Positions 1,790 through 37,353 of a DNA stretch of 64,000 bases are shown here, piece after piece. Every line of letters begins with the position of its first letter. Position 1 is the stretch's first letter. The stretch comes from Emticicia aquatilis (GTDB lineage Bacteria > Bacteroidota > Bacteroidia > Cytophagales > Spirosomataceae), in NCBI RefSeq assembly GCF_014644295.1, contig NZ_BMKK01000009.1, positions 62,001 to 126,000 on the forward strand, in the 5' to 3' direction. The translations under genes and the position numbers were made by a program. The notes beneath the pieces were generated by a model. That model saw only the letters and a list, made by a program, of their open reading frames with translations, had not been told where the DNA came from and did no database searches.

Positions 1790-2569
1790 TTAGGCTTGCT
1801 CAACCGATACTTTCATATCATTGAGGTAAATATTACCAAATTGTGTGGCAAATGCTACGTCACTGGCATCACGTCCGTAGGCCAATACGACCCTATTCCC
1901 TTTGGGTTGAGCTTGTGTAGCATCGAATGTAAACCATTGGTTTTCGAGATATACTTCAAACCATGCGTGCAAGTCCATGGGGTTAAGTTCATACAAATAT
2001 CCCACTACCATACGAGCAGGTACATTGATGGCTCGACAAAGTGCAATGCAGAGATGAGAAAAATCTCGGCAAACCCCAATTCGACTCAAATTAATATCGC
2101 AAGCTGATGATGAAGATGAACTATAACCATATTCGTAAACTACATTATTTCGTACCCACTGGCATATTGCATCGATTTTCTCATAGCCTGTTCGATAGGC
2201 TTGTGTGATTTCGTCGGCCATATACAAAAACCTGTCTGACTCACAATATCTACTTGGTAATAAATAAATTAAGCTATAATCGGGAAGTTGCTCAATCGAA
2301 ACTGCTTGAGCAGCAAAATTAACATCAATTGTTTCTGAAGTTTCAACAAGTGCAGAAGCTTGAATCTTAAAATTACCTATCGGACTCAATAATCTTTGGC
2401 AAAGATTACCATAAATATCTTGATACTCAGTAAAATTTGTGAATGGAAAAAGCGAAAATTGTTCGTCTAAAACCTGTTGAGCAGCCCCACTTTGCGGGCG
2501 AAGCATCATCACTAAAGGGACATTATCGGGACAATCGTAATCAAGCTGGCAAGATACTTTTAATTTCAT
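1790..2569 (-). CDS. Transglutaminase-like cysteine protease family protein
   Basis: 259 residues with no signal peptide, so probably cytoplasmic. The N-terminal half (about 1-110) resembles the beta-rich domain that precedes the transglutaminase core in bacterial proteins of this type. The core carries the full papain-like triad: Cys167 in GVCRDFSHL, His201 in MDLHAWFEV and Asp216 in FTFDAT. The family includes proteases and amidases, and the substrate cannot be predicted here. A serine run (five residues, about 151-155) lies just before the catalytic loop. It stands alone between bamD and a 500-base intergenic region. Confidence 0.8.
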   Translation of the reverse strand: MKLKVSCQLDYDCPDNVPLVMMLRPQSGAAQQVLDEQFSLFPFTNFTEYQDIYGNLCQRLLSPIGNFKIQASALVETSETIDVNFAAQAVSIEQLPDYSLIYLLPSRYCESDRFLYMADEITQAYRTGYEKIDAICQWVRNNVVYEYGYSSSSSSACDINLSRIGVCRDFSHLCIALCRAINVPARMVVGYLYELNPMDLHAWFEVYLENQWFTFDATQAQPKGNRVVLAYGRDASDVAFATQFGNIYLNDMKVSVEQA

Positions 2570-3070
2570 TGGGGGCTATTTTTGATAAAGATAGTGGAAT
2601 TATTCAGAAGAAGAAATCCTTTTATCCATTACCTCAAAAATACATTAGAAATATACATTTTAATGTTAAATTATTATTAATTCCTAAGATTTTAGAATAT
2701 TCTGACACGTACTACAAACTCCTTTCAACGACCTAACAACTTTCAAAAAATAATTCTTCCTTAAAATACTAACGTTTAATTATTGTCGTTGTTTATTTAA
2801 GTGTAATTAAGAACCTTATCTGTTTGCTTACCACTTAGCAAAAAATAATTCTGCCAAAATAGACTTTAGGCAAATTCTTAATAGGTACTTCTTTCAATTT
2901 TAAGGTATTTTTAATACCACTTAATAACTTTATAATTTGAAGAAGTGTTACCTTTGCCTTAGCTTTTCACTGAAAATAAGTTAAACTGCGAAAATTATAA
3001 ACCTTTTTAGAATTACGTTTATTTTTATCGTGTTTTTAACTTGTTATCTTTAACTTTCCTAATAACGCAA
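2570..3070. other. AT-rich intergenic region upstream of the Kelch gene
   Basis: About 500 bases without a convincing gene. A TACCTTTG box at 2949-2956 fits the Bacteroidota -7 element (TAnnTTTG) and could serve the Kelch gene at 3071, but I see no TTTG at the expected -33 distance. A small hairpin (GGTATT-TTT-AATACC) lies at 2904-2918. Nothing else stands out. Confidence 0.4.
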
Positions 3071-4987
3071 ATGATTAACCTTAAAAGCTACGCTTTTACT
3101 GTATATCCCTGCATAAAAATTAAAAAAACCTTCCCCTTAATTATTCTTACGGTCATCTCTTTTAATTGTTTTTCTCAAAATCAATGGACTTGGATGTCAG
3201 GATATTTGGTAAGTGATGCAGCTTGGAATTACCCCCGTCCTCTACCCTCGCCTTTAAGCGTGCGAGGCACTCCGTGGACTTTAGGCAGTACCTTTAAACC
3301 TTCGGTTAGAGAACACGCTGCTGGAGGTATAGCCAATAATAATGAAATTTATGTTTATGGAGGGGCTTCTTTAGAGTCTGAATATTCTTCTGATTTTTGG
3401 GTATATGACGTTTCTCAACAAAAATGGGCATTTATTTCTGATTTAGGTTCTCAAGCTATAGCTGACTCTATTGGAAAAGAAAGCACAATTGCACATCCTG
3501 GAGGAAGAAACAGGACGGCTTCTACGGTTGATAAAAATGGAAATATTTGGTTATTTGGTGGGCTTTATTACGATAGAAATATGTCTGATTCCTATGCAAA
3601 GTCAGACTTATGGAAATATAATCCAAAAACGAAAAAATTCACTTATTTTGATGAGCATGGAGGTTCTCCAGATAAGCCAAGTCCCAGATATAGGGCCAGA
3701 GCTTGGTTTGATGATAACAATAATATGTGGTTATATGGTGGTGCGATTGATTCTCCAAGCGGTTCGCTCTCGTATAATGATTTATGGATGTTTAATACCA
3801 CAACTAAAAGTTGGTTTTTTATAAGTGGTAACAAAAATGCCTCATATTGTAAGAATTGTCTCAATGGCGTATATCCAACAACTCCAGGCACTGGTGGGAC
3901 ACAGTATTTTCCACGTGCGAGGTCTGATTATGGATATTGGAAAGACAACTCTGGGAATGTATGGATTTATGGTGGTTATGCCGAATCTCATGGCTCAGAT
4001 GAATATGGTGACCTTTGGAAGTTTAATCCTACCACAAAAGTATGGACACTCATTTCGGGAAATGACACTTTAAACCCGCCTAAAACTGCAACTAACCCAG
4101 GTTCAAGAAATGCTCCTTATTGTTGGGTAGGTAATGACAACAAACTATACATGACTGGCGGGCAAAGACAATACTGGTATTTTTTAAGAGATACTTGGCG
4201 AGTAAACCCCACAAACGGTAGTTGGGAAGTTGTCAAAATAGATACATTAACTAACGAAGCTCCTATTTCGGCAGGCCTTAAAATCGAAAATTCTACTAAT
4301 ATGCCAGGGTCTTCAGTTAACACCCTCAATCACCTCACTACTGGCTCACATACTTATATGTTTAGCGGATATGGTATGGGGTCGAATAACCTTTTGGGCT
4401 TTACAGGAGCCATGTGGCGATATTCTTTAGATGGCTATAATCCCAATTTAATACCAATCGCCAATTCAGACTCTCTTGTTTTACCTTACCGAGATTCTAT
4501 TGCCTGTAATATAAAAGCAAATGACTTACCCAAAGGCTCATTTAATAATGCCACATTTGATATTGATATAAACCTTGCGGGAATCCAGAAGAGTCTTAGT
4601 ACTACCAGTGGTACATTTACGGTTGACAGTACTGGAACTGTTTGGTTTAAACCAACAACCACCAACTTTGTGGGAACTGTTTTATTGAGTTATACTTACC
4701 AAAATTCGGCTAAGTATGTTTCAAACACGGCACAGCTCAAGCTAATTGTCTATAAATGTGCCACGACCCAATTAACTCTTGCGTCACCCTCTAACGATAT
4801 TACGAACGGAGTCTATCAATACAATAATAATGAATCTGCCAAACTTATTAATAAAATAAATCCTGTCGGTGAAAATACAGTGACAGTTAAAGTAAATGCC
4901 GCCACATCAATTGTATTTCTACCTGGTATGACAGTCAATACTAATAATGGTTCAACCTTTGAAGCCAAGATATCTGGCTGCAATTAA
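3071..4987 (+). CDS. Secreted Kelch-repeat protein with C-terminal coathanger-stack-like domain
   Basis: About 638 residues. A hydrophobic export signal ends near CFSQ and is followed by NQWTWMSG, the typical opening of Bacteroidota Kelch/galactose-oxidase-like proteins. Six Kelch blades are visible, each with a paired-glycine strand and a following W (IYVYGG, IWLFGG, MWLYGG, VWIYGG, LYMTGG, YMFSGY). After the propeller, about 480-570 looks like a cadherin- or Ig-like domain. The last 50 residues (INPVGENTVTVKV ... FLPGMTVNTNNGSTFEAKISGC) resemble the 3-coathanger stack found at the end of many secreted Bacteroidota proteins. I start at the ATG at 3071; an upstream in-frame TTG at 3041 adds ten residues. 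No copper-ligand set of galactose oxidase is apparent, so I call it a binding propeller. A leucine-rich-repeat lipoprotein gene follows after 11 bases. Confidence 0.75.
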   Translation: MINLKSYAFTVYPCIKIKKTFPLIILTVISFNCFSQNQWTWMSGYLVSDAAWNYPRPLPSPLSVRGTPWTLGSTFKPSVREHAAGGIANNNEIYVYGGASLESEYSSDFWVYDVSQQKWAFISDLGSQAIADSIGKESTIAHPGGRNRTASTVDKNGNIWLFGGLYYDRNMSDSYAKSDLWKYNPKTKKFTYFDEHGGSPDKPSPRYRARAWFDDNNNMWLYGGAIDSPSGSLSYNDLWMFNTTTKSWFFISGNKNASYCKNCLNGVYPTTPGTGGTQYFPRARSDYGYWKDNSGNVWIYGGYAESHGSDEYGDLWKFNPTTKVWTLISGNDTLNPPKTATNPGSRNAPYCWVGNDNKLYMTGGQRQYWYFLRDTWRVNPTNGSWEVVKIDTLTNEAPISAGLKIENSTNMPGSSVNTLNHLTTGSHTYMFSGYGMGSNNLLGFTGAMWRYSLDGYNPNLIPIANSDSLVLPYRDSIACNIKANDLPKGSFNNATFDIDINLAGIQKSLSTTSGTFTVDSTGTVWFKPTTTNFVGTVLLSYTYQNSAKYVSNTAQLKLIVYKCATTQLTLASPSNDITNGVYQYNNNESAKLINKINPVGENTVTVKVNAATSIVFLPGMTVNTNNGSTFEAKISGCN

Positions 4988-4998
4988 AATATAAAAAG

Positions 4999-5817
4999 AT
5001 GAAAAAAAATTTTTACTCTTGTTTAGTAGCTGGTGTGTTTGTAGTAGCTTGCAGCTCTCGAACCATAGAAATCGACCCAAATATTATTCTTATTCAAGAT
5101 AGTAATTTTGAAAAAGCCTTAATTGCAGAAAAAATTGACTCTGACAGCACTATTAATGGTCAAATAAAAAGGTCTGATGCCGAAGACGTTAAAGTTTTGA
5201 GCGTTCCGAACTTACAAATAAAATCATTGAGTGGTATTGAAGGCTTTAAATCCCTTACTTATTTAGATTGTTCGTTAAATCAGCTAACAAATCTTGATGT
5301 AAGTCAGAATACTGCTTTGGAATCGTTAGATTGTTCATCAAATCTTCTTACTAATATTGATTTAAGCAAAAATCTCAATTTGGCGGCATTTAATTGTGTT
5401 AATAATCAATTAAAAGATTTATCCATTCCGAGTAAGCAGTTATATGCCCTAAATGCCAATAATAACTTATTGGTGACGGTATCAGTTGATGCGGCTACAA
5501 GACTTTCATTGCTTTATTTATCAAATAATCAAATCAAAAGCATTAGCCTAATCAATAATCAAGCTCTTGCTGAGTTGAAATGCAACAGCAATAAACTCAC
5601 AACAATTGATTTGAGTAAAAACACTAAGCTACGTTATTTAGATGTATCGAACAATTCATTATCAACGCTTGACTTATGTAATAATACCGAAATTCTCAAA
5701 CTCATTTGTTCGTCGAATAATATCGCAAAAATTACTATTCCGAAAAAAATACAACCAATGTTTGTAAATAACACGGCATTAATTGATAGTAAAACTTCTT
5801 ATTCGACTTGTGATTGA
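4999..5817 (+). CDS. Leucine-rich-repeat lipoprotein
   Basis: 272 residues. Lipobox VVAC with Cys18. The mature protein starts with a region found in related cell-surface proteins (DSNFEKALIAEKIDSDSTINGQI), then about eight 20-22-residue leucine-rich repeats of the form LxxLDCSxNxLTxLDLSxN. The repeats include LTYLDCSLNQLTNLDVSQN and LRYLDVSNNSLSTLDLCNN. Such proteins are usually surface-exposed binding proteins. The gene lies 11 bases after the Kelch gene, so both are probably co-transcribed; a shared surface role is inference. No catalytic motif is visible. Confidence 0.8.
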   Translation: MKKNFYSCLVAGVFVVACSSRTIEIDPNIILIQDSNFEKALIAEKIDSDSTINGQIKRSDAEDVKVLSVPNLQIKSLSGIEGFKSLTYLDCSLNQLTNLDVSQNTALESLDCSSNLLTNIDLSKNLNLAAFNCVNNQLKDLSIPSKQLYALNANNNLLVTVSVDAATRLSLLYLSNNQIKSISLINNQALAELKCNSNKLTTIDLSKNTKLRYLDVSNNSLSTLDLCNNTEILKLICSSNNIAKITIPKKIQPMFVNNTALIDSKTSYSTCD

Positions 5818-5953
5818 GATTTAACCTAATCTTTCATTAAATTAGCATTAGAATTGGCTCTTTTTGTGAGGTTATATCGTTAAATTATTGTTAAATACTT
5901 GAATTTTACGCCATTTTTGACTTATTTCGCAGAACACATTTTGTTGTCGAGCG

Positions 5954-8248
5954 ATGGAAGAAAGCATAAAAAATACCCCCAATGACAAAGGCTCGAAAAG
6001 TAGCCTTTTTTCTTTTTTAAATGGATTAGTCCCAAGTAATAAAGCCAACGAATCGAAAGGCATTGCAGAAGATTCTAAAATCAACCGCTATGCTGATAGC
6101 ATTGAACAGTCGAATTACCTGAGTCGTGATTTAAGTTGGCTCAAATTCAACGAGCGAGTTCTTGACCAAACTCGTGAAAAAGACCTTAATCTATTTGAAA
6201 GATTGAAGTTTTTGGCCATTACAGCGTCTAATCTTGATGAGTTCTTCACGGTTCGTTTGGGCAGTCTTTACAATTATCTTGACTTCAATAAAGAGCGTAT
6301 CGACTATTCTGGTTTGCGTGAAATTCCTTTCCGGAAAGCTCTCATGCTCTCGGTTAAGCAATTTTGTCAGGAACAAGATAGAATTTTTAAGGAAGAACTC
6401 ACTCCGCTTTTTTCTGATTATAAGTTTAAAATCGTAAAAATCAGCGAGCTTTCTCCTGCCGAGTTAGAAGAAACCATTGCGTACTTCGATAATACTGTTT
6501 ATCCGATGCTTACGCCAATGCTTTTCGACCACACCCATGCTTTCCCTGTTTTGATTGCTAAAACGTTGATTTTTGGGGTCGTAACTGATGCTAATCGTTC
6601 AACACTCTTTCCCGACGATAGCGAAAACAAAAAACTTTCATTTGTTCAGATTCCAGGAAATCTCCCAAGATTTTTTACGATTGAGCGTGGAGAAGAAATT
6701 TTGTTTTTACCAATCGAAGAAATCGTTCGACACGAAATAAAGAAACTATATCGAAACATAGAAATTCAATCGGTTAATCTGTTTCGCATCGTAAGGAATG
6801 GAGATTTTACCCTCGAAGAATCTGATGATATTGAAGCAGACTTCGTGGACGAAATCAAGCAAAAAATTAAAAGTCGCCGTTTAGGACGAGTGGTTCACAT
6901 GGAAATTGAACCCAATCCAAATGAGTGGATGCTTACGATGCTCCAAAAGCGTTTCGAGATTGACAAATACAATATCTTTTTTGATGAGTACCTTATAGAT
7001 TATACTTGTTTATGGCAAATTATTCGTCATCCAGAGTTTCAAGAAGATATTAAACCAGTGCATCCGCCAATCGTTCATCCGAGATTGCGAGATAAAAACG
7101 CTGATATTTTTGAGGTAATTCGTGAAAAAGACTTATTGTTGCATCATCCATACAACAATTTTGAGCCAGTTTTACAACTTATCGAAAAAGCTGCCGAAGA
7201 CCCAGATGTTTTGGCTATTAAACTTACCATCTATCGTTTGGCTAAAAAATCTCGTGTAACACAAGCCCTTCTGAAAGCGGCTGAAAATGGCAAACACGTA
7301 TCGGTTTTGTTTGAAATTAAAGCTCGTTTCGACGAAGAAAACAATATCCGTGAAGCTGACCGACTTCAACGTGCGGGTTGCTTTGTGATTTATGGTATTG
7401 GTTGGTATAAAACCCATACCAAACTCATGTTGATTGTAAGAAAAGAAGGAAATAAAGTTACCCAATATGCTCACTTAGCGAGTGGAAATTACAATGAAGA
7501 TACGGCAAGACTTTATACAGATATTGGCTTGCTAACAAGTAATCCGACTTACACGAAGGATATTTCGGAGTTTTTCAATGTAATTACGGGTCATTCACAG
7601 CCTGCCGATTATCATAACTTAATTACGTCGCCTCGTGATATGCGTAATAAACTCATTGAGATGATTCGCAATGAGGCCACAAATGCTCAAAATGGCTTGC
7701 CAAGCGGTATTTGTATCAAGCTTAACTCACTCGAAGACCAACACGTAATTAACGAACTTTACAAGGCTTCTCAAGCAGGTGTAAAAATAAAATTGATTGT
7801 GAGAGGTATTTGTTGTTTACGCCCAGGTAGAAAAGGATTAAGCGAAAACATCACCGTACGCTCAATCGTTGGGCTTTTCCTCGAACACGCACGCATCTTC
7901 TATTTCCATAATAATAACCAAACAAAGCTCTATGGTGGCAGTGCTGATATTATGGTGAGAAGTTTTGATAAACGTATTGAGTCTCTATTTGAAATTGTTG
8001 ATGAAGATATAAAACGCCAAGTGATGCACATCTTAGACTATAATCTTCGAGATAATGTAAACGCTTATGAGCTTCAAGAAGATGGCACCTATAAGCGGGT
8101 AGTTTGCTCTCTTTCATCAGAAGAACAGCCTTTTGATATTCACCAACGCTTCTTTGAAGTAACAGGACAAGACAACGAACCAATCGTATTGTTCGATACC
8201 GAACCAAAAGTAGTTGAAGAAATAGAAACAAGCGAGGTTGAAAACTGA
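5954..8248 (+). CDS. ppk1: Polyphosphate kinase 1
   Basis: 764 residues; reversibly polymerises the gamma-phosphate of ATP into polyphosphate. The N-terminal domain shows YLSRDLSWLKFNERVLDQ and the ATP-contacting SNLDEFF (Asn93). The two phospholipase-D-like C-terminal domains carry the autophosphorylated histidine in THTKLMLIVRKE (His488) and a second active-site histidine in FLEHARIFYF (His645). The segment YAHLASGNYNEDTARLYTD is also diagnostic. About 50 extra residues precede the usual start and are polar and serine-rich. The gene is monocistronic and ends three bases before a strong bidirectional terminator. Confidence 0.96.
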   Translation: MEESIKNTPNDKGSKSSLFSFLNGLVPSNKANESKGIAEDSKINRYADSIEQSNYLSRDLSWLKFNERVLDQTREKDLNLFERLKFLAITASNLDEFFTVRLGSLYNYLDFNKERIDYSGLREIPFRKALMLSVKQFCQEQDRIFKEELTPLFSDYKFKIVKISELSPAELEETIAYFDNTVYPMLTPMLFDHTHAFPVLIAKTLIFGVVTDANRSTLFPDDSENKKLSFVQIPGNLPRFFTIERGEEILFLPIEEIVRHEIKKLYRNIEIQSVNLFRIVRNGDFTLEESDDIEADFVDEIKQKIKSRRLGRVVHMEIEPNPNEWMLTMLQKRFEIDKYNIFFDEYLIDYTCLWQIIRHPEFQEDIKPVHPPIVHPRLRDKNADIFEVIREKDLLLHHPYNNFEPVLQLIEKAAEDPDVLAIKLTIYRLAKKSRVTQALLKAAENGKHVSVLFEIKARFDEENNIREADRLQRAGCFVIYGIGWYKTHTKLMLIVRKEGNKVTQYAHLASGNYNEDTARLYTDIGLLTSNPTYTKDISEFFNVITGHSQPADYHNLITSPRDMRNKLIEMIRNEATNAQNGLPSGICIKLNSLEDQHVINELYKASQAGVKIKLIVRGICCLRPGRKGLSENITVRSIVGLFLEHARIFYFHNNNQTKLYGGSADIMVRSFDKRIESLFEIVDEDIKRQVMHILDYNLRDNVNAYELQEDGTYKRVVCSLSSEEQPFDIHQRFFEVTGQDNEPIVLFDTEPKVVEEIETSEVEN

Positions 8249-28472: not shown

Positions 28473-28979
28473 TTATAATTCAACAATCGTGTAGGTGATT
28501 GTTGTGCTATATGTTTTTACTGGCAATATAACCGATATACCACTTAACGAGTACTCAATCGGTATATTACTAAGGCTAATACCACCCAGACTTAAAAAAC
28601 TAACGTTTATTGTAAAAAAAGCAGTAGAAATATTTGTAATAGTTTGAGCAGTAGTGCCTCCACTGGCACTCACTGCACTCAAAATACTGGGCGTTCCAGC
28701 ACCAGTTCTGCGAGCAGTTAGTACTAAATTATTGTGCCAATCAGTATTGGTTTTACTAACCGAAATCCGATAGTTTTTGGCCACCAACAAGGACCCCAAA
28801 CCACTGGCAGTAATCAATGTTTGATTAGCTGCACTGGTCAACGTACTGGGCGAATAATCGCTTCCCGTAGTTGAAATTGCGGTAATACTTGGTAGCCAGT
28901 TTCCACTAACCGAAATAGCCTGACCTTCAGCCAACAAACTTATCGTTAGTAAAACCCCAAGAAGTCCAGTCTTTATCAT
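28473..28979 (-). CDS. Small secreted protein, candidate minor fimbrial subunit
   Basis: 168 residues with a signal peptide ending near AEGQA. The mature part is Ser/Thr/Gly-rich and predicted all-beta (LGSLLVAKNYRISVSKTNTDW, TAQTITNISTAFFTINVSF). It ends in YSTTITYTIVEL, like the ends of the other two small proteins of the operon (TYTLIDN, TYTLADN). It is the last gene of the five-gene minus-strand operon, three bases after its neighbour. It is the most divergent of the three and has internal features of a tip or adaptor subunit, but that is inference. I do not recognise a named family. Confidence 0.6.
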   Translation of the reverse strand: MIKTGLLGVLLTISLLAEGQAISVSGNWLPSITAISTTGSDYSPSTLTSAANQTLITASGLGSLLVAKNYRISVSKTNTDWHNNLVLTARRTGAGTPSILSAVSASGGTTAQTITNISTAFFTINVSFLSLGGISLSNIPIEYSLSGISVILPVKTYSTTITYTIVEL

Positions 28980-28982
28980 AAA

Positions 28983-29522
28983 TCAATTATCAATGAGTGT
29001 GTAAGTAATCTGGACAACGTTTGTGCCACTTCTCAGCAATCCATAGTTTGAAACATTCACGGTATAAGTAAGTTTAAATCCGTTGCCAACTCCAACGCCT
29101 GTATATGCCCCAGTAATATTATTTAAGACAGTGGCAGCCGTTCCGAGTGTTATAGGGCTTGCCACACTCGCCACTATTGTTCCCAGTGTTCCGCCGCCGC
29201 CCACTGCTGCATTCAAACCTAATTTTAATTGTAATCCACTCGGCACAGTACCAGCCGAAATACTGGCTTCTATTCTTCGGCTTACACCGCTCGCTACTGC
29301 CGAAGTAAAATTGAGCCATTTGGTTTCGTCGCTGACAGTAGTTGTTAGTGCCAAACCAGCCGTTGCAGGGCTTCCCAACGTCAATGTACTACTTCCACTT
29401 GAGGCTATACTTATTCGGGCAACACTACTAAAAGTCAAACTTACCGAAGCATTGCCAGAAGTCTGAGCTTTGCCTTTTAGGTAAATAAGCGTTAGTAATA
29501 ATGTAAGCACGATTTTTCTCAT
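28983..29522 (-). CDS. Small secreted beta-rich protein, candidate fimbrial subunit
   Basis: 179 residues, signal peptide ending near KGKAQ. Shares with the 196-residue protein at the head of the operon the pattern VLxxITxxYTGxG, LTYTxxV and the end YGxLRxGTxxxxxTYTLxDN. The N-terminal ASVSLTFSSVARISI is an alternating strand that could serve as a donor strand. The middle (ASGVSRRIEASISAG) recalls spore-coat-U/Csu-like pilin subunits, but no cysteines are present. It starts two bases after the usher-like gene stop. Structural subunit role is inferred from context and repeats among the three proteins. Confidence 0.62.
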   Translation of the reverse strand: MRKIVLTLLLTLIYLKGKAQTSGNASVSLTFSSVARISIASSGSSTLTLGSPATAGLALTTTVSDETKWLNFTSAVASGVSRRIEASISAGTVPSGLQLKLGLNAAVGGGGTLGTIVASVASPITLGTAATVLNNITGAYTGVGVGNGFKLTYTVNVSNYGLLRSGTNVVQITYTLIDN

Positions 29523-29524
29523 TT

Positions 29525-32500
29525 CTATTCTAAATTTGAGGCTACACTCTTGTTTAAGTTATCGCTCTGTTTGATGCTCGAAGTGCGGTTGCCTTCTATA
29601 TTCCCTGTTTTTGTTTTATTACGCTGCACAATTCTATTTTGCAACTGAAACTTGGGTTCGACCTCCAACTTTATTAATATCGGTTCTCGCTTCAGAATAA
29701 GGCTAACTGGCGTCGAATCGAATAGTTTTTTGGCCTGATTGGCTTTATTATTCTTTGAAATAGGCTGTGATACTTTCTTTTTATTATCGGTAGATGTTCG
29801 ATTTGAATTCTGCTTTTTACTATCAGTTCCCTGCTTATCTACAAGTTTGAAGGTTCTCGGCATAAATTCTATCTGACGCTCAACTGGACGCACAGCAAAT
29901 TCGGTTTTCTTAATCTTATCAACCACAATTTCTATCGTTTGTTGGGCATTTATCACCGTGAACCCTTCTTCATTACCTGCCAAAGTTGCTAAAATTTGCC
30001 AAGTACCAGGCTTCATCTCTTTGAACGAAAACCGATTACTTTCATTCAATTGAGTAACAAAACTTTCATTATCATTAAAAAGCTTCACCAAAACAACTGG
30101 CTTTTCGGTATAATTTGTGGCAAGTTTTTCACCATCTTCAAAAAACACCTTTCCTTCAATTCCACCTGTTTTTAGTAACTGTATCTGAATATTGGTCGTG
30201 CTATCAGCTTTTAAATTTACTTCTAATGGCAATTTTACGTTCGTAATTACACCAAATGGAGTTGTGCTTTTATCTATTTCAAGGTAATATTTATCTGGAA
30301 TTAATTTATTAAAATAAAAATTACCGTTTTCGTCAGTTAGCATACGTTTTTCGCCTAACTGAACCACAATACCTTTCTTGCTCGTGCTATTAGAAAGGCC
30401 CAAAATCTGCCCTCTGATATTACTCAGATTTTTATTTTTAGCAACTGGGGCATTGATTCGTAGTGTATATTTCAGCGATAGATACGTTGTTTTCTGAAAA
30501 TCGACCGATAAGTTCGGTATAAAAGTTTGTCCCGCAGTTAGGTTAAAACTATGATTTTTAATCCTAAGCCCTACCGACAAATCAACTAAGCTTCTATTTT
30601 CGATGAGTTCGTCGGGTGCGAAATTATTTCTATACGAAAAATTAGCATTCAATTTATCGCCTACAAACATTCGCAAAGAACCACCATAGAAAAACAAATC
30701 TGTCAGTGTGTTTTCGGTCGAGAATCGGCTTGTTCGTTGGTGTTCAGCCATTCCGCCAATCCACATCCACGGAAAAACTCTCACTTGAGGTTGTAGAGAA
30801 TTAGCTATCGACTGTCTCGGCACACTTGCGTCGTTATTTTGTAATAGATTTTGAGCGGTACCGTATCTTCCTTCATACCAAAGAATAAATTTAGGAGCAT
30901 TCAGATTGTAGGCGATTCGGGCAAAATCTTGTTTGAAATGAAACTTTTTAGGTTCGAGCCTGTCTTCTCGTTCTTGTTTATTATAACTCAGCAATAAATT
31001 GCTAAACTTACTAAGTTGGAAACTGGTGAATGCCTGTATACTTGAATTATAAGGCGATATATTAAAATTAATGGCATCTAAACTCGGATTTATACGAGTA
31101 ATATTATTCCCTACACCGATACTTATTTTCTTACTAAGAGCAATCGAAAGATTATTGACCAACAAATAACTGTTGTTATAATATCCATAAAAGTCCTTGC
31201 CAGCATATATGTAGTCGCTGTGGAGTTGGAATCTTTTAAGTTGTATCGAAACCCGATTAAAAAGACCATAATCATACTGTTGCTCTACCCTATTTCCTAC
31301 TACTTCGGTTTCCCAGTTTAATACTTTCCCCTGAAATTTTGTAGAAACTCCCACTAAATCTGACCAAAATGCTCGGTTTTTCTTGACCATGTATTTCGAC
31401 ATATAATCAATCGAGACCCTAAACTTGGTACTTGGTTTCAGAAAAAAACTACCTCCAAATGTTTCTTTTTGCTCATTAAAAAACCTTGGTTGAATATAAA
31501 ATCCCGAAAAACCGAGCTTCTTAAATTCATTATCAATACGCATTCCACGGCCAAAACGACCAAATTCCATGAGGTTATTAAATTGCAAAGTATAGTCGCC
31601 TAATTTGATAAAGTTTTGATTTTTAAAACTATAATTAAGCGAATACACATCGTAGCTTCCCAAAATCGGAATATCAATATTGGTGGGGCCATGAGCCGTA
31701 AAATCTAAGAAATGCTTACCTTTCATATCCAAAAAACCTCTGCCTCTAATATCAAACTGCACCCCCGAAGTATTTTTGTTGCCAATCATATAATTGGTGT
31801 ACCATATACCTGCTTCAATCGGAAATCTTAGATATGGGTCTTTTTTCTTGATTTTATTAGAATATACTGGCAGTGAATTAATCACTTGTATCGGCACAAG
31901 CGAATCTTTCAGATAGGCTTTGATACCCAAGGGAGTTTCCCATGAATTACTATCGCTCTCTTTTATCAGTTGTATGTTTTTGAGCCTTACCGATTCATTT
32001 GGACCTATTTTTAGCGAATCATTATTAAACTCTATTCGCCCACCTATGCTTTCGAGCCTTACTTCTTCCTGACTATTGCCTAAATTATGTATCAAATACT
32101 CTACTTTTAGCGTATCTCCTTCTTTAACATACTCTGGCAAAACCACTGGAGTTATTTCTACTTTTCTTACTCTTACTACATCAATCAATAATTTCTTTGA
32201 GATAATCGGCCCATCTTTCCTTTTTGCATAGACATAAAGCGTAAAACTCCCTGCCTTTGCGAACTTTGGAGACATGATGGTATAAATGTATCGGAGGGTT
32301 TCTTCATTGACTTGGTTTTGTGGCTCTTTCTTGAAAAGTACTTGCCAATAAGCAGGAACTCCAACCGAAACAATGATAGGTTCTTGCAATTTGGTAGGGC
32401 TTTTTACTTCAAAAATGATGTTAAAATGAGAACCAGGTGAAGCTGTTTTTGGAATATTAAGCATATTTATTTCTAATTCCTCTTGTCCGAAACAACCAAA

Positions 32501-32542
32501 AGAAATCATCAAACAAAATAATATATAGTAAAAGGGCTTCAC
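29525..32542 (-). CDS. Usher-like outer-membrane barrel protein with N-terminal Ig-like and C-terminal carboxypeptidase-regulatory-like domains
   Basis: 1005 residues, GTG start directly at a signal peptide (ends near FGQ). Order: two Ig-like domains (about 20-230; the second includes VEYLIHNLGNSQEEVRLE), a long alternating barrel region (about 240-725; e.g. FIKLGDYTLQFNNLMEFGRF, similar to the early strands of ushers), then two carboxypeptidase-regulatory-like domains (about 735-880; MLTDENGNFYFNKLIPDKYY and GIEGKVFFEDG). The last 120 residues are polar, Lys/Asn/Ser-rich and probably disordered. Barrel plus a 'DENGNFxFxxLxPxxYxLEID' domain is how fimbrial ushers are built. It is flanked by a chaperone-like gene and small secreted subunits. 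An alternative is an unrelated surface barrel with adhesin function. Confidence 0.55.
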   Translation of the reverse strand: MKPFYYILFCLMISFGCFGQEELEINMLNIPKTASPGSHFNIIFEVKSPTKLQEPIIVSVGVPAYWQVLFKKEPQNQVNEETLRYIYTIMSPKFAKAGSFTLYVYAKRKDGPIISKKLLIDVVRVRKVEITPVVLPEYVKEGDTLKVEYLIHNLGNSQEEVRLESIGGRIEFNNDSLKIGPNESVRLKNIQLIKESDSNSWETPLGIKAYLKDSLVPIQVINSLPVYSNKIKKKDPYLRFPIEAGIWYTNYMIGNKNTSGVQFDIRGRGFLDMKGKHFLDFTAHGPTNIDIPILGSYDVYSLNYSFKNQNFIKLGDYTLQFNNLMEFGRFGRGMRIDNEFKKLGFSGFYIQPRFFNEQKETFGGSFFLKPSTKFRVSIDYMSKYMVKKNRAFWSDLVGVSTKFQGKVLNWETEVVGNRVEQQYDYGLFNRVSIQLKRFQLHSDYIYAGKDFYGYYNNSYLLVNNLSIALSKKISIGVGNNITRINPSLDAINFNISPYNSSIQAFTSFQLSKFSNLLLSYNKQEREDRLEPKKFHFKQDFARIAYNLNAPKFILWYEGRYGTAQNLLQNNDASVPRQSIANSLQPQVRVFPWMWIGGMAEHQRTSRFSTENTLTDLFFYGGSLRMFVGDKLNANFSYRNNFAPDELIENRSLVDLSVGLRIKNHSFNLTAGQTFIPNLSVDFQKTTYLSLKYTLRINAPVAKNKNLSNIRGQILGLSNSTSKKGIVVQLGEKRMLTDENGNFYFNKLIPDKYYLEIDKSTTPFGVITNVKLPLEVNLKADSTTNIQIQLLKTGGIEGKVFFEDGEKLATNYTEKPVVLVKLFNDNESFVTQLNESNRFSFKEMKPGTWQILATLAGNEEGFTVINAQQTIEIVVDKIKKTEFAVRPVERQIEFMPRTFKLVDKQGTDSKKQNSNRTSTDNKKKVSQPISKNNKANQAKKLFDSTPVSLILKREPILIKLEVEPKFQLQNRIVQRNKTKTGNIEGNRTSSIKQSDNLNKSVASNLE

Positions 32543-32582
32543 AGGTCTATTAGTCAGGGAATTATTAGGCGTAAGTCAATAT

Positions 32583-33374
32583 TTACTCTATCTCAATCGT
32601 CAGGTTCGACCCAATTAGGTTCTTACCGTTATCTGCTACCAATACTCCGTCGTACTTACCCTTGGGCAAATCGCTTACTTCAATTTCAAAATTGCTGCAT
32701 TTTTCGGGAAATACTCGGCGAGGGTTTGCATCTAAAGTCTTTATTTTCTGGCCTTTAGCATCATAGATTTCTAATTGCATTTTTGTGCGAACCACAAACT
32801 GCCCTTCATTCTTGAGTTGGACTTCCACTAATCGAGAAGATATTTGGGTTTTCTTTAGATTTATATCTTCAAAGGTCATCTTTGGTGCTTCAAAAGAGCC
32901 TAAATCAACTAAAATCTGAATAGCATATCTTACTTTTGATGCTATGTTTAGTCCATTTTTTTCGCTGGTCGAAACGGGGTCGCCAGGTTCAATCATTATC
33001 ACTACCCAGTATGTACCTTTCTTATCGACTTGACGTGGAACATTGATGGTATAAGACAAATCATATTCTTCTCCGCCTACTAAATTCTTTTCATCAATGC
33101 TCGTTTTGAGCCAATTTTTCAAACTTCTATCATGGGTTTCGGTACTCGAAAAAACCTCGTTTTTTCCACAAGAAAATAGCATATCTTGTTTATATGCCAC
33201 AAACTTTTCGAGTTTTACGCCATCATTTTTTAGTTTTATTTTTCCTGTAATAATACTTCCATCCGAACCCGTATGTTGGTGAGTAAGACCATTTAAGACG
33301 ACTATCGTTCCGAATGTTTGAGTTGACCAGAAAAGAAATAAAACCAAATAAGCAGCAATACGACGATTTCTCAT
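32583..33374 (-). CDS. Periplasmic chaperone-like Ig-fold protein
   Basis: 263 residues with a signal peptide ending near STQTFG. The mature protein looks like two beta-sandwich domains. The first, about 25-145, includes TGKIKLKNDGVKLEKFVAYKQ and YDLSYTINVPRQVDKKGTYW. The second, about 155-263, includes VEVQLKNEGQFVV, TLDANPRRVFPEKCSNFEIE and LPKGKYDGVLVADNGKNL. Such two-domain architecture, 'extra protein' opposed strands and the position between subunit and usher-like genes suit a fimbrial chaperone, though the classic FGS/FGL chaperone signatures are not evident. Related architecture occurs in DUF916/DUF3324-type surface proteins, which is the main alternative. Confidence 0.5.
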   Translation of the reverse strand: MRNRRIAAYLVLFLFWSTQTFGTIVVLNGLTHQHTGSDGSIITGKIKLKNDGVKLEKFVAYKQDMLFSCGKNEVFSSTETHDRSLKNWLKTSIDEKNLVGGEEYDLSYTINVPRQVDKKGTYWVVIMIEPGDPVSTSEKNGLNIASKVRYAIQILVDLGSFEAPKMTFEDINLKKTQISSRLVEVQLKNEGQFVVRTKMQLEIYDAKGQKIKTLDANPRRVFPEKCSNFEIEVSDLPKGKYDGVLVADNGKNLIGSNLTIEIE

Positions 33375-33412
33375 TTGAAGGATGGATTTTATTTAAACAA
33401 GTACAATAAAGA

Positions 33413-33445
33413 TATGGCTTAGCTAAATCGAATAACTAAGCCATA
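33413..33445 (-). terminator. Intra-operon hairpin after the first subunit gene
   Basis: A perfect ten-pair stem (TATGGCTTAG with its complement) and a 13-base loop lie between the 196-residue subunit gene and the chaperone-like gene. On the minus strand it is followed by TCTTTATTG, a poor T run, so partial termination or 3'-end stabilisation of the subunit message is more likely than full stop. Confidence 0.6.
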
Positions 33446-33479
33446 CAACTTAACCTTTTTATAAATACTGATACCAAAA

Positions 33480-34070
33480 TTAATTATCTGCCAGTGTATA
33501 AGTTACTGTAATGGTGTATGTACCTGCTCTCAAAGCTCCATATTGAGCCGAACTGAGCGTAGCAGGCAAAACATCTGAAGTATATGTCAGCAAACTACCA
33601 TCCGTTGCTCCAGTTCCTGTGTAACAACTCGTGATACCATCTAAGACTTTCACGGTTGTACCAGTGGCTAAGGTTTGAGTTGGAGCCAATACCACCTGAG
33701 CTCCAGTAGTTGTACCAAGCACACCAGAACCAGATGAAGGCGTTGCGGCTGCAACTTTTACGTTCAGACCATTAGTAAGCGATGTAACCCCAGTAGCAGT
33801 AACATAAATCTTGCGGTCAGTTATGGCTGTACCCATAATTGAAGAATACTGTAAGTACAAAGCAGCACCACTCGCAACAGCCCCCGTGATTGGGTCACCG
33901 GCTACTGCGGGAGCCGAATAAGTCAATGTCTTAGTGTTGCCAGTTGTAGGGCTAATTCTAATCATTGTTACTGCCGGAATCTCAATACTGACATTATGTG
34001 AAGTAGTTTGGGCAAAGGACTCGGTGTAGATTCCACTTAAAAGTGCAAGTGCGATAATTATCTTTCTCAT
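33480..34070 (-). CDS. Small secreted beta-rich protein, candidate major fimbrial subunit
   Basis: 196 residues, signal peptide ending near ESFAQ. The mature part starts with TTSHNVSIEIPAVTMIRIS, an alternating strand, is Thr/Ala/Gly-rich, and ends in YGALRAGTYTITVTYTLADN, closely matching the end of the 179-residue protein. A single Cys (ITSCYTG) is present, so no disulfide. It is the first gene of the operon and is followed by a stable hairpin, the usual position of a major pilin whose message is kept in excess. The assignment to a fimbria-like fibre is inferred. Confidence 0.62.
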   Translation of the reverse strand: MRKIIIALALLSGIYTESFAQTTSHNVSIEIPAVTMIRISPTTGNTKTLTYSAPAVAGDPITGAVASGAALYLQYSSIMGTAITDRKIYVTATGVTSLTNGLNVKVAAATPSSGSGVLGTTTGAQVVLAPTQTLATGTTVKVLDGITSCYTGTGATDGSLLTYTSDVLPATLSSAQYGALRAGTYTITVTYTLADN

Positions 34071-34579: not shown

Positions 34580-36202
34580 ATGAATAGAAGTAAAAACCTT
34601 GAAAGATTACAAAACGAACAATTTGATATTTGCATCATTGGTGGTGGTGCCAGTGGTGCAGGATGTGCCTTAGATGCTACTTTGCGAGGTTTTAAAGTAG
34701 CCTTGATTGAAAAAGAAGACTTTGCAGCCGAAACTTCTTCAAAATCAACCAAACTAATTCATGGAGGAGTAAGATATTTGGAGCAAGCCTTCAAAAATTT
34801 TGATTTTGCCCAACTTCGCCAAGTCAGACATGGGCTTGAAGAACGCCATACCGTGATTCGTAATGCACCGCACTTAGCTCACCCATTGGCCTTGATTACG
34901 CCAGTATTTAGTTGGTTTGAAGGTTTTTACTTTACTATTGGGCTTACTATTTATGGTTTCTTTGCCAAAAACGATACCATGCCCAAAGCCCAATGGCTTA
35001 ATAAAAAAGAGACATTTGAGCATATCCCTACGCTTACGCCAAAGCTTCATAGCTCTGTAATGTATTACGATGGCCAGCTCGACGATGCACGTTATTGTTT
35101 AGCCCTTGCCCACTCTGCCGACGAAGCAGGAGCAGCCGTAGTTAATCATGCCTCAATCACAAATTTTGAAAAAGATAGCAGCGGTAAGTTGATTGCTGCA
35201 ACCATAAAAGACAATCTTTCAGATAAAAGCTTTAGCGTTAAAGCCAAACTTTTCATTAACTGCACTGGCCCACACGGAGATAGTATTAGGCTATTGGCAA
35301 ACCCTGACCAAGAAAAACGCCTACGCCCAAGTAAGGGTGTGCATATCATGCTTCCTCCCGAAGTTTTGCGTAGCCAAGATGCGATGCTGATTCCTAAAAC
35401 CAAAGATGGTAGGGTTGTTTTTGTTATTCCGTTTGAAGGTGAAGTGATGGTAGGCACAACCGACGATGAATACCGAGATTTAGATAAAGAGCCTATTTTA
35501 ATTGAACAGGAAATTGATTTCTTGCTCGATACACTCCGACCATACATTGCCAAAGTTCCAGATAAATCACAAATTAAGTCTGGATTTGGCGGTTTACGTC
35601 CACTTATCGCTTCGTCTGGCTCGAAAGCAACAAAAAAACTGGTACGTGACCACGAAGTAGAATACGATGAGAAATCAAATTTACTGAGCCTTTTAGGTGG
35701 TAAATGGACTACTTATCGCTTAATGGCAAAGGATACAATTGATGAAGCGTGTAAGCTTTTGAATAACGAAACTGAATGTACCACCGAGCTTCACTATCTA
35801 ATTGGTGGAGAAAATTATAATTTTGAAGAATGGAAAATCATTCAGAAAAAATATAATCTCGACGAAGATATTTGTCAGCATTTAGTAAAAAAATACGGTA
35901 CTAAGGCACACAATGTGCTGGAAACCTCGATTCAAACTGACCGAATTCATAAAGATTATCCATTCATCAAAGCCGAAGTGATTTACACGGTTCGTGAGGA
36001 AATGGTAGGCAGCCTCCGAGATTTCTTTGCCCGCCGAACTCGCATGGAATTAATGGATTGGAAAGCTACATTTAATTCGGTAGATGCAGTAGCAGAAATC
36101 ATGGCTTCCGAACTAAATTGGAATGAACAACAAACACAAACCAATATTGCTGATTATAAAAAGCTTTTGAAAAATTTCATGCAAAAAGCCAATGTAATTT
36201 AG
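34580..36202 (+). CDS. glpD: Glycerol-3-phosphate dehydrogenase, FAD-dependent
   Basis: 540 residues; oxidises sn-glycerol 3-phosphate to dihydroxyacetone phosphate and passes electrons to quinone at the inner membrane. The FAD-binding motif is DICIIGGGASGAGCALDA (about 16-33), followed by KSTKLIHGGVRYLEQ, a GlpD hallmark. Further family segments are PSKGVHIMLP, VMVGTTDDEYRDLDKEP, SGFGGLRPL and LLGGKWTTYRLMAKD. The C-terminal domain holds EVIYTVREEMVGSLRDFFARRTRM. The gene is alone, with its stop overlapping by four bases that of the convergent outer-membrane protein gene. No glpK or glpF is adjacent. Confidence 0.93.
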   Translation: MNRSKNLERLQNEQFDICIIGGGASGAGCALDATLRGFKVALIEKEDFAAETSSKSTKLIHGGVRYLEQAFKNFDFAQLRQVRHGLEERHTVIRNAPHLAHPLALITPVFSWFEGFYFTIGLTIYGFFAKNDTMPKAQWLNKKETFEHIPTLTPKLHSSVMYYDGQLDDARYCLALAHSADEAGAAVVNHASITNFEKDSSGKLIAATIKDNLSDKSFSVKAKLFINCTGPHGDSIRLLANPDQEKRLRPSKGVHIMLPPEVLRSQDAMLIPKTKDGRVVFVIPFEGEVMVGTTDDEYRDLDKEPILIEQEIDFLLDTLRPYIAKVPDKSQIKSGFGGLRPLIASSGSKATKKLVRDHEVEYDEKSNLLSLLGGKWTTYRLMAKDTIDEACKLLNNETECTTELHYLIGGENYNFEEWKIIQKKYNLDEDICQHLVKKYGTKAHNVLETSIQTDRIHKDYPFIKAEVIYTVREEMVGSLRDFFARRTRMELMDWKATFNSVDAVAEIMASELNWNEQQTQTNIADYKKLLKNFMQKANVI

Positions 36203-36732
36203 AGCGAATGCCCAAGACTTAGGCCAGCTCCAAACCGAAAGTGTTGTTCAGCGTAGATTGGTGTGAGGTGAATTTTATAGAAAAAAACATCAGATTTTCC
36301 CCATTTTATAAACTGTTTTCTAAGACCTACGATAGGTGCGAGATACAAGACAGGCCTTTGCCCCAGTGAAGAAACATAGCTCAACCCCAATCCTGTTTCC
36401 AGAAAACGTTCTTTAAAAACTTTTTGCGGGGCCGCATCGCAATCCTTTTTCTTATTCAATAAAAAATTGTAGGTTAAAGAAAATGGCACCGAAACGGCTT
36501 GTGAAGTGCTGTTTGACTTAAACCCAACCCCAGCCCTGATAACTCCAAACGAATTTTTAGCTTTGTAAGGCACAAATTCAAAGTTAGCTGATAAAAACGG
36601 ACTTATTCCCCCAATCTCAGCAGACAAAGCAATGTCACTGCGAGTACGGTATTGAATTTGAGCAGCAGTTTTACAGAAAAAAATAAAAGATAAAATACCA
36701 GCAAAATGTAATCGGGCGGTGTTCCGTTTCAC
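36199..36732 (-). CDS. Small outer-membrane protein, paralogue of the next gene
   Basis: 177 residues from a GTG start (the only start near the signal peptide, which ends at KTAAQ). The mature protein opens with IQYRTRSDIALSAEIGGISP and ends with RFGAGLSLGHSL, and alternates hydrophobic strands as in a small beta-barrel. The neighbouring gene product shares the opening (IMYRTRYRTAIMAE) and ending (LRGGLSLGVSL), so the pair is a tandem duplication. No enzyme motif; function unknown. The stop overlaps the glpD stop. Confidence 0.6.
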   Translation of the reverse strand: MKRNTARLHFAGILSFIFFCKTAAQIQYRTRSDIALSAEIGGISPFLSANFEFVPYKAKNSFGVIRAGVGFKSNSTSQAVSVPFSLTYNFLLNKKKDCDAAPQKVFKERFLETGLGLSYVSSLGQRPVLYLAPIVGLRKQFIKWGKSDVFFYKIHLTPIYAEQHFRFGAGLSLGHSL

Positions 36733-36774
36733 TCAAGAATAGTTTGAATTTTCGTAACCGCAAAGATAAGGATT

Positions 36775-37353
36775 TTAGAGCGAAACGCCTAAGCTAAGTC
36801 CTCCACGAAGTTCATATTTACCGAATGAATAAGAAGGAGTGACATTCACCCTAAAGAAAACAACTCTTGGATGTGGCGGAATATCAAAAATGACTTGTTG
36901 TCTCAAGCCCAAAATGCCAAATGAATAACTCCGAGTTTCGGCACTTCTGTATGCAACGGGGGTTATTCCTGCTCCCATCTCAACAAACCACTCAGCAGCA
37001 ATTTTAGAAGGAGCCGACTTACACTTCACAGCAACTCGTTTATTAATTCCTCTACGAAGATTATTAATTAGATAATTATAAGTAACTGACGTTGGCACAG
37101 AAACGCCGCCACCATTGGCTACTTGCCCAACTCCAGTTGACCTTCCACCTGGTAGAAAACCAATACCCGTACGCAATGCTAAAAAACTATTTCTCCACCT
37201 TACAGGTAAATATTCTACATTGACTGACCCCAACGGACTAATAGCAAACGATTCGGCCATAATTGCCGTACGATAACGTGTACGATACATTATTTGAGCA
37301 TTAGTTGTCTCAAATAATGTGACTAAAATGATGAGGGTTAGAAAATACTTCAC
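36775..37353 (-). CDS. Small outer-membrane protein
   Basis: 192 residues, signal peptide ending near TTNAQ. Alternating strands (FLALRTGIGFLPGG, SVTYNYLINNL, WFVEMGAGITPVAY, RVVFFRVNVTPSYSF, LRGGLSLGVSL) suggest an eight-strand or similar outer-membrane barrel. It is 42 bases upstream of its paralogue and probably co-transcribed with it. A two-residue RR-rich loop (RRGINKRVAVKCK) sits mid-protein. Function unknown. Confidence 0.6.
   Translation of the reverse strand: MKYFLTLIILVTLFETTNAQIMYRTRYRTAIMAESFAISPLGSVNVEYLPVRWRNSFLALRTGIGFLPGGRSTGVGQVANGGGVSVPTSVTYNYLINNLRRGINKRVAVKCKSAPSKIAAEWFVEMGAGITPVAYRSAETRSYSFGILGLRQQVIFDIPPHPRVVFFRVNVTPSYSFGKYELRGGLSLGVSL

Follow-up and report, generated by a model that had tools for sequence, protein, structure and literature searches.

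A conserved Bacteroidota operon with an usher-like barrel and a WxLIP-related chaperone, probably for the assembly of a surface fibre

Could Bacteroidota assemble a surface fibre by a chaperone-usher-like route? The question is raised by five open reading frames (ORFs), all on the minus strand, at positions 34070-28473 of a 64,000-nucleotide stretch (hereafter the window) of the 6.75 Mb genome of Emticicia aquatilis (contig NZ_BMKK01000009.1, positions 62,001 to 126,000). A first-pass annotation had described five co-directional genes at this place, with gaps of 2-3 bases joining the last three, and had suggested a separate usher-like lineage in this phylum. The layout is confirmed, the gaps between the barrel gene, D, and E being 2 and 3 bases, and the operon probably belongs to an usher-like lineage of the Bacteroidota and makes a thin surface fibre, not of lipoproteins, in a chaperone-usher-like way. 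The genes are as follows (Ig, immunoglobulin; AF2, AlphaFold2).

33480..34070, minus strand: subunit A, 196 aa, the probable major fibre subunit (family alignment, AF2 model, VIA matches)
32583..33374, minus strand: chaperone-like protein of 263 aa with a pair of Ig-like domains, related to WxLIP (profile and hhalign)
29525..32542, minus strand: usher-like outer-membrane barrel protein, 1005 aa, GTG start (AF2 model, Foldseek)
28983..29522, minus strand: subunit D, 179 aa, of the same family as A by alignment, 2 bases after the barrel gene
28473..28979, minus strand: subunit E, 168 aa, a distant relative of A and D and candidate tip subunit

None of the five proteins exceeds a curated Pfam or NCBIfam cut-off in the profile scan, so that profile scanning alone would label all of them hypothetical. 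The standard usher profile (PF00577) matches neither the barrel protein nor anything else in 148 Bacteroidota genomes, the E. coli control being matched, yet the usher-like operon is conserved in the phylum, ranging from Emticicia to Mariniphaga. According to family profiles, the order A-chaperone-barrel-D-E is kept in 16 loci besides the window, many junctions overlapping by 1-8 bases, which places the operon far beyond chance. A second complete and intact copy lies elsewhere in the genome, on a different contig, the two barrels being 46% identical, and the A/D subunit family has four members in this genome, two per operon and none elsewhere. Transposase-like ORFs adjoin this second copy (L017 1034-1874). 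The barrel of the window is 83% identical to its counterpart in an Emticicia metagenome-assembled genome. Variants of the layout are also found: in one locus (L027) a single gene of 338 aa combines D and E, and in Mariniphaga, which belongs to a different order, the operon has extra subunits and no E (L005). The barrel is present in 11 of the 58 genomes of the relatives search, host genome included. Relatives by the chaperone profile occur in 37 of 395 Bacteroidota genomes (~9%) and in 25 of 171 genera, several of them next to other usher-like barrels; full-length barrel relatives are scarcer, the count in that search leaving aside many short matches to CarboxypepD-like domains of other proteins.

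How far the barrel protein resembles an usher can be judged from its AF2 model (pLDDT 77, 15 sequences), in which the following parts are predicted ahead of a disordered tail that ends the protein after residue 902.

31853..32479, minus strand: N-terminal domain made of two Ig-like domains, residues 24-227 (AF2 strand order)
30437..31834, minus strand: transmembrane barrel, residues 237-702, predicted with 26 strands and loops of at most 14 residues (AF2)
29834..30424, minus strand: two C-terminal beta-sandwich domains, residues 707-791 and 793-902 (AF2, VIA)

The pair of C-terminal sandwiches, the first of them CarboxypepD_reg-like, occupies the position of CTD1/CTD2 in ushers, and the classical usher N-terminal domain is replaced by the two Ig-like domains. 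In a Foldseek search of the Protein Data Bank (PDB), the top four matches are FimD (E 4e-16 to 1.4e-12), followed by LptD (4e-7) and BtuB (8e-7). By VIA, the model aligns with MtrB (Z 19.4, 413 residues), PapC (15.9, 347 residues), and FimD (15.7, 348 residues), some porins tying with the ushers; the alignment to FimD spans the barrel and the C-terminal domains and reaches FimD residue 833. Since no loop of the barrel is longer than 14 residues, the model has no plug domain. The usher-style barrel anticipated by the first-pass annotation is therefore partly borne out: the paired C-terminal domains and the FimD match stand, whereas the model does not give the 24-strand plugged barrel, whose absence the annotation itself had set as a refuting condition. 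The predicted architecture is usher-like, minus the plug and with another strand count. A plugless usher, if true, would question how gating of the pore works.

The earlier reading of the second gene product as a two-domain chaperone is supported, with an unexpected closest kin. The profile of 15 family members matches E. faecium WxLIP1 (EfmWxLIP1; 9i1y/9i25) in the PDB with E 5e-5, both domains being covered. Pfam matches among these 15 chaperones are to WxLIP_PGBD (six members) and WxLIP_HBD (one member), single members lying near or below the cut-offs, and the comparison with six WxLIP proteins by hhalign gives 97.3% (E 2.4e-11), shuffled controls staying below 1% and reversed ones at 2%. 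These profiles point clearly to a relationship with Gram-positive WxLIP over both domains, and WxLIP is the closest relative of the chaperone that can be demonstrated by sequence. Outside the Gram-positives, WxLIP_PGBD also matches in Thermotoga maritima, one of the control genomes.

Kinship with PapD-type chaperones is less well supported than kinship with WxLIP. No member of the chaperone family matches PF00345, and direct hhalign comparisons with E. coli chaperones give 1.2-5%. A pooled superfamily profile reaches 94.3% against them (E 9.6e-8, 187 columns; shuffled and reversed controls at most 0.2%), but a merely Ig-like control, the N-terminus of an L099-type barrel (see below), also reaches 82.6% over 190 columns. 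This makes kinship with PapD suggestive. The family alignment also shows a conserved strand in which R149, Y150, and Q153 are invariant.

32898..32954, minus strand: conserved chaperone strand, residues 141-159, GLNIASKVRYAIQILVDLG (family alignment)

This segment aligns with WxLIP in the PDB profile match and falls near the G1 strand of the E. coli chaperones, which suggests it as a candidate donor (G1-like) strand.

Of the subunits, A is taken first. Its signal peptide is probably cleaved ahead of the invariant Gln21, and in its AF2 model (pLDDT 82.7, 36 sequences) the sandwich begins at residue 34, residues 22-33 being confident (pLDDT ~90) and without a strand partner.

33975..34010, minus strand: donor-strand-like N-terminal extension of A, residues 21-32, QTTSHNVSIEIP (alignment and AF2)

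Across 36 sequences, this extension shows a strict alternation, being hydrophobic at positions 27 (92%), 29 (100%), and 31 (100%), mostly polar at 28 and 30, and followed by Pro32. In addition, in 35 of the 36 subunits no more than four residues follow the final strand motif. Among the top 50 VIA matches of the A model (Z 4.6-6.6), nearly all belong to donor-strand pilins or to related filaments of donor-strand type, the alignments starting near residue 33 and reaching the C-terminus. Each of these scores proves little, and the evidence lies in the uniformity of the matches. Subunit E is related to A/D by hhalign (93.9-96.2%), with a gap at the position of the N-terminal motif; lack of this motif is what would be expected of a tip subunit, and E may well be one. 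The spore coat U profile (PF05229) has no match among 27 A/D subunits and none in 198 genomes, where no control genome matched either, which makes the genome search uninformative. With PF00577 and PF00345, it is among the profiles proposed beforehand, and none of these three matches the proteins of the operon. The subunits were also considered as WxL domains, with C-termini that look alike; this assignment is not supported: PF13731 does not match and hhalign gives 1.4-1.7%.

Taken together, these features would fit the following assembly route. All five proteins would be exported by Sec. The chaperone-like protein would lend one of its strands to every subunit that is not yet complete and pass that subunit to the barrel, where the N-terminal strand of the incoming subunit would displace the chaperone strand from the previous one, the growing fibre leaving through the barrel. 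In such a fibre, A would be abundant and make up the shaft; D would be a minor subunit or an adaptor, and E would probably form the tip.

Several results weigh against this reading. By hhalign, neither the chaperone nor the barrel nor the subunits give a direct profile match to E. coli chaperone-usher proteins, the barrel reaching 0.3% against the ushers. The modelled barrel lacks a plug and is predicted to have 26 strands where ushers have 24, and MtrB, which is not an usher, outscores PapC by VIA (19.4 versus 15.9). Also, the structural scores of A are individually weak (best Foldseek E 0.047, VIA Z at most 6.6), although its model, VIA matches, and strand pattern are in agreement. As for the direct profile comparison, two known relatives fail it as well (EcpC 19.6%, EcpB 0.4%), which makes it uninformative rather than negative. 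Most likely, then, the operon works in the chaperone-usher style and is yet not an ordinary member of that family, key features by which a standard usher is recognised being absent. The separate lineage suggested at the outset is kept in this form: a FimD-like barrel in a conserved operon, but with WxLIP as the nearest kin of its chaperone.

Comparison with known systems leads to the same position. As in chaperone-usher pili (FimD/PapC, Csu, ECP), the genes run subunit, chaperone, usher, minor subunits, the barrel is followed by two C-terminal sandwich domains, the N-terminal extension is donor-strand-like, and the subunits end on a conserved strand. Unlike those pili, the proteins have no match to PF00577, PF00345, or PF05229, the predicted barrel is plugless with 26 strands and two N-terminal Ig-like domains, and the chaperone is nearer WxLIP. 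Fibres built by strand complementation, as proposed here, are also found in this phylum as type V (FimA/Mfa1) fimbriae; those, however, are made of lipoprotein precursors, whereas no lipobox is found in any of the five proteins.

The Gram-positive WxLIP (DUF916-DUF3324)/WxL clusters offer the other comparison, and from it comes the alternative that survives best: a Gram-negative counterpart of WxL/WxLIP, in which the WxLIP-like protein would be the permanent partner of A, D, and E, and the barrel would merely anchor or export a non-polymeric complex. Here the two-domain partner protein is homologous throughout, and in several WxL clusters WxLIP is immediately preceded by the small WxL gene, as the chaperone is by A. 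Moreover, AlphaFold modelling predicts that a strand of WxLIP completes the WxL sandwich (PMC10599100), the principle that also underlies donor-strand complementation. But the operon has an outer-membrane barrel and lacks a WxL domain and an LPXTG protein, and the chaperone ends in a strand (...GSNLTIEIE) and lacks the membrane helix that WxLIP is described as having at its C-terminus. The subunits show no detectable WxL kinship, WxL domains are absent from the 198 Bacteroidota genomes, the control matching, and the free, alternating N-terminal strand of A and D suggests polymerisation. We consider this alternative unlikely.

A second alternative is that the operon is a true chaperone-usher system of the archaic or alternative class, strongly diverged and with its plug lost. 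Archaic systems are said to span a wide range of phyla (PMC9452303). In its favour are Bacteroidota operons of the L100 type: L100 itself (1925-7082, genome G198) encodes an usher-like barrel that carries a TcfC/plug-like segment and ends in a SPOR tail, together with an SCPU-like subunit (E 0.66) and a chaperone of WxLIP/PapD-like type. Related barrels occur in 54 of 77 genomes of the family of L100, the SPOR tail in 7 of 11 members. The TcfC match, which lies in the plug position of the barrel, comes from a single L100-type member and is below the cut-off, and weak PapD_N matches are seen in 3 of 16 L100-type chaperones; a profile search of the PDB returned only SPOR domains for this barrel type and no match for its chaperone. 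The pooled profile against E. coli chaperones would also favour a diverged member, but the merely Ig-like control also reaches 82.6%, and the direct comparisons of barrel and chaperones given above fail. A diverged usher system is judged improbable.

The poorest alternative is another outer-membrane role, for example in an MtrB-type conduit or in polysaccharide export, the Ig-like proteins being accessories. The VIA rank of MtrB and matches to polysaccharide porins such as AlgE would favour it. It is very improbable: the operon has no enzymes, there is strict co-occurrence with a chaperone and two to three small Ig-like subunits, the five proteins contain no CxxCH haem motif, and for this last reason the MtrB match was dropped as a functional clue.

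Returning to the proposed fibre-building lineage, a second group of related operons bears on its origin. L099 (2268-10954, genome G265) and L102 (1301-7836, genome G069) have tandem, near-identical subunits of 181 aa, a chaperone above the WxLIP_PGBD cut-off, and a 934-aa barrel, together with a 477-aa, two-part, tip-adhesin-like gene; in L099, kinase-like and response-regulator-like genes follow. The L099-type barrel is homologous over its full length to that of the window (hhalign, 100%, E 6e-41), and the chaperones of the L099 and L100 types are homologous to the chaperone of the window (97.5-98.1%, L100 giving 98.1%). Also, PF00345/PapD_N matches above the Pfam cut-off occur in seven genomes of one other Bacteroidota genus (g102, family f36; for example, L076 1264-2178 and L077 1375-2202), with no barrel gene in the short flanks read beside these loci. 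Together, the L099 and L100 types hint at an origin shared with chaperone-usher systems but do not prove it. By sequence comparison, the chaperones of this lineage have a common ancestry with Gram-positive WxLIP and, probably and more remotely, with PapD-type chaperones. A wider idea, which we put forward tentatively, is that chaperone-usher pili and Gram-positive WxL/WxLIP complexes form one ancient donor-strand superfamily, of which the plugless 26-strand, L099, and L100 operons of Bacteroidota would be surviving intermediates. The WxLIP link would tie pilus chaperones to the surface complexes that Gram-positive gut bacteria carry, and it would make a common origin testable.

In the open PMC literature, which was the scope of the search (subscription papers and preprints lay outside it), neither a report of chaperone-usher pili in Bacteroidota nor an established name for this operon was found, and the novelty is provisional for that reason. 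In PMC5789003, the assembly of Bacteroidetes fimbriae is called little known.

Finally, the operon has a feature that may bear on its expression.

33412..33446, minus strand: stem-loop of 14 pairs just 3' of gene A (folding energy versus shuffles)

Its folding energy is -18.6 kcal/mol, against a shuffle mean of -6.7 and a shuffle minimum of -12.8. In 13 of the 16 loci tested, the hairpin after A beats all 40 mononucleotide shuffles, the hairpin sequences being unrelated between loci. In pilus operons, hairpins of this kind increase the share of the major subunit, and the one described here likely acts in processing or attenuation, to the benefit of A expression. The operon is flanked by a convergent galactokinase-like gene on one side and a divergent glycerol-3-phosphate-dehydrogenase-like gene on the other. 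Elsewhere in the window (36199-37353), two neighbouring minus-strand ORFs of 177 and 192 aa resemble each other and have the look of an outer-membrane protein that was duplicated.

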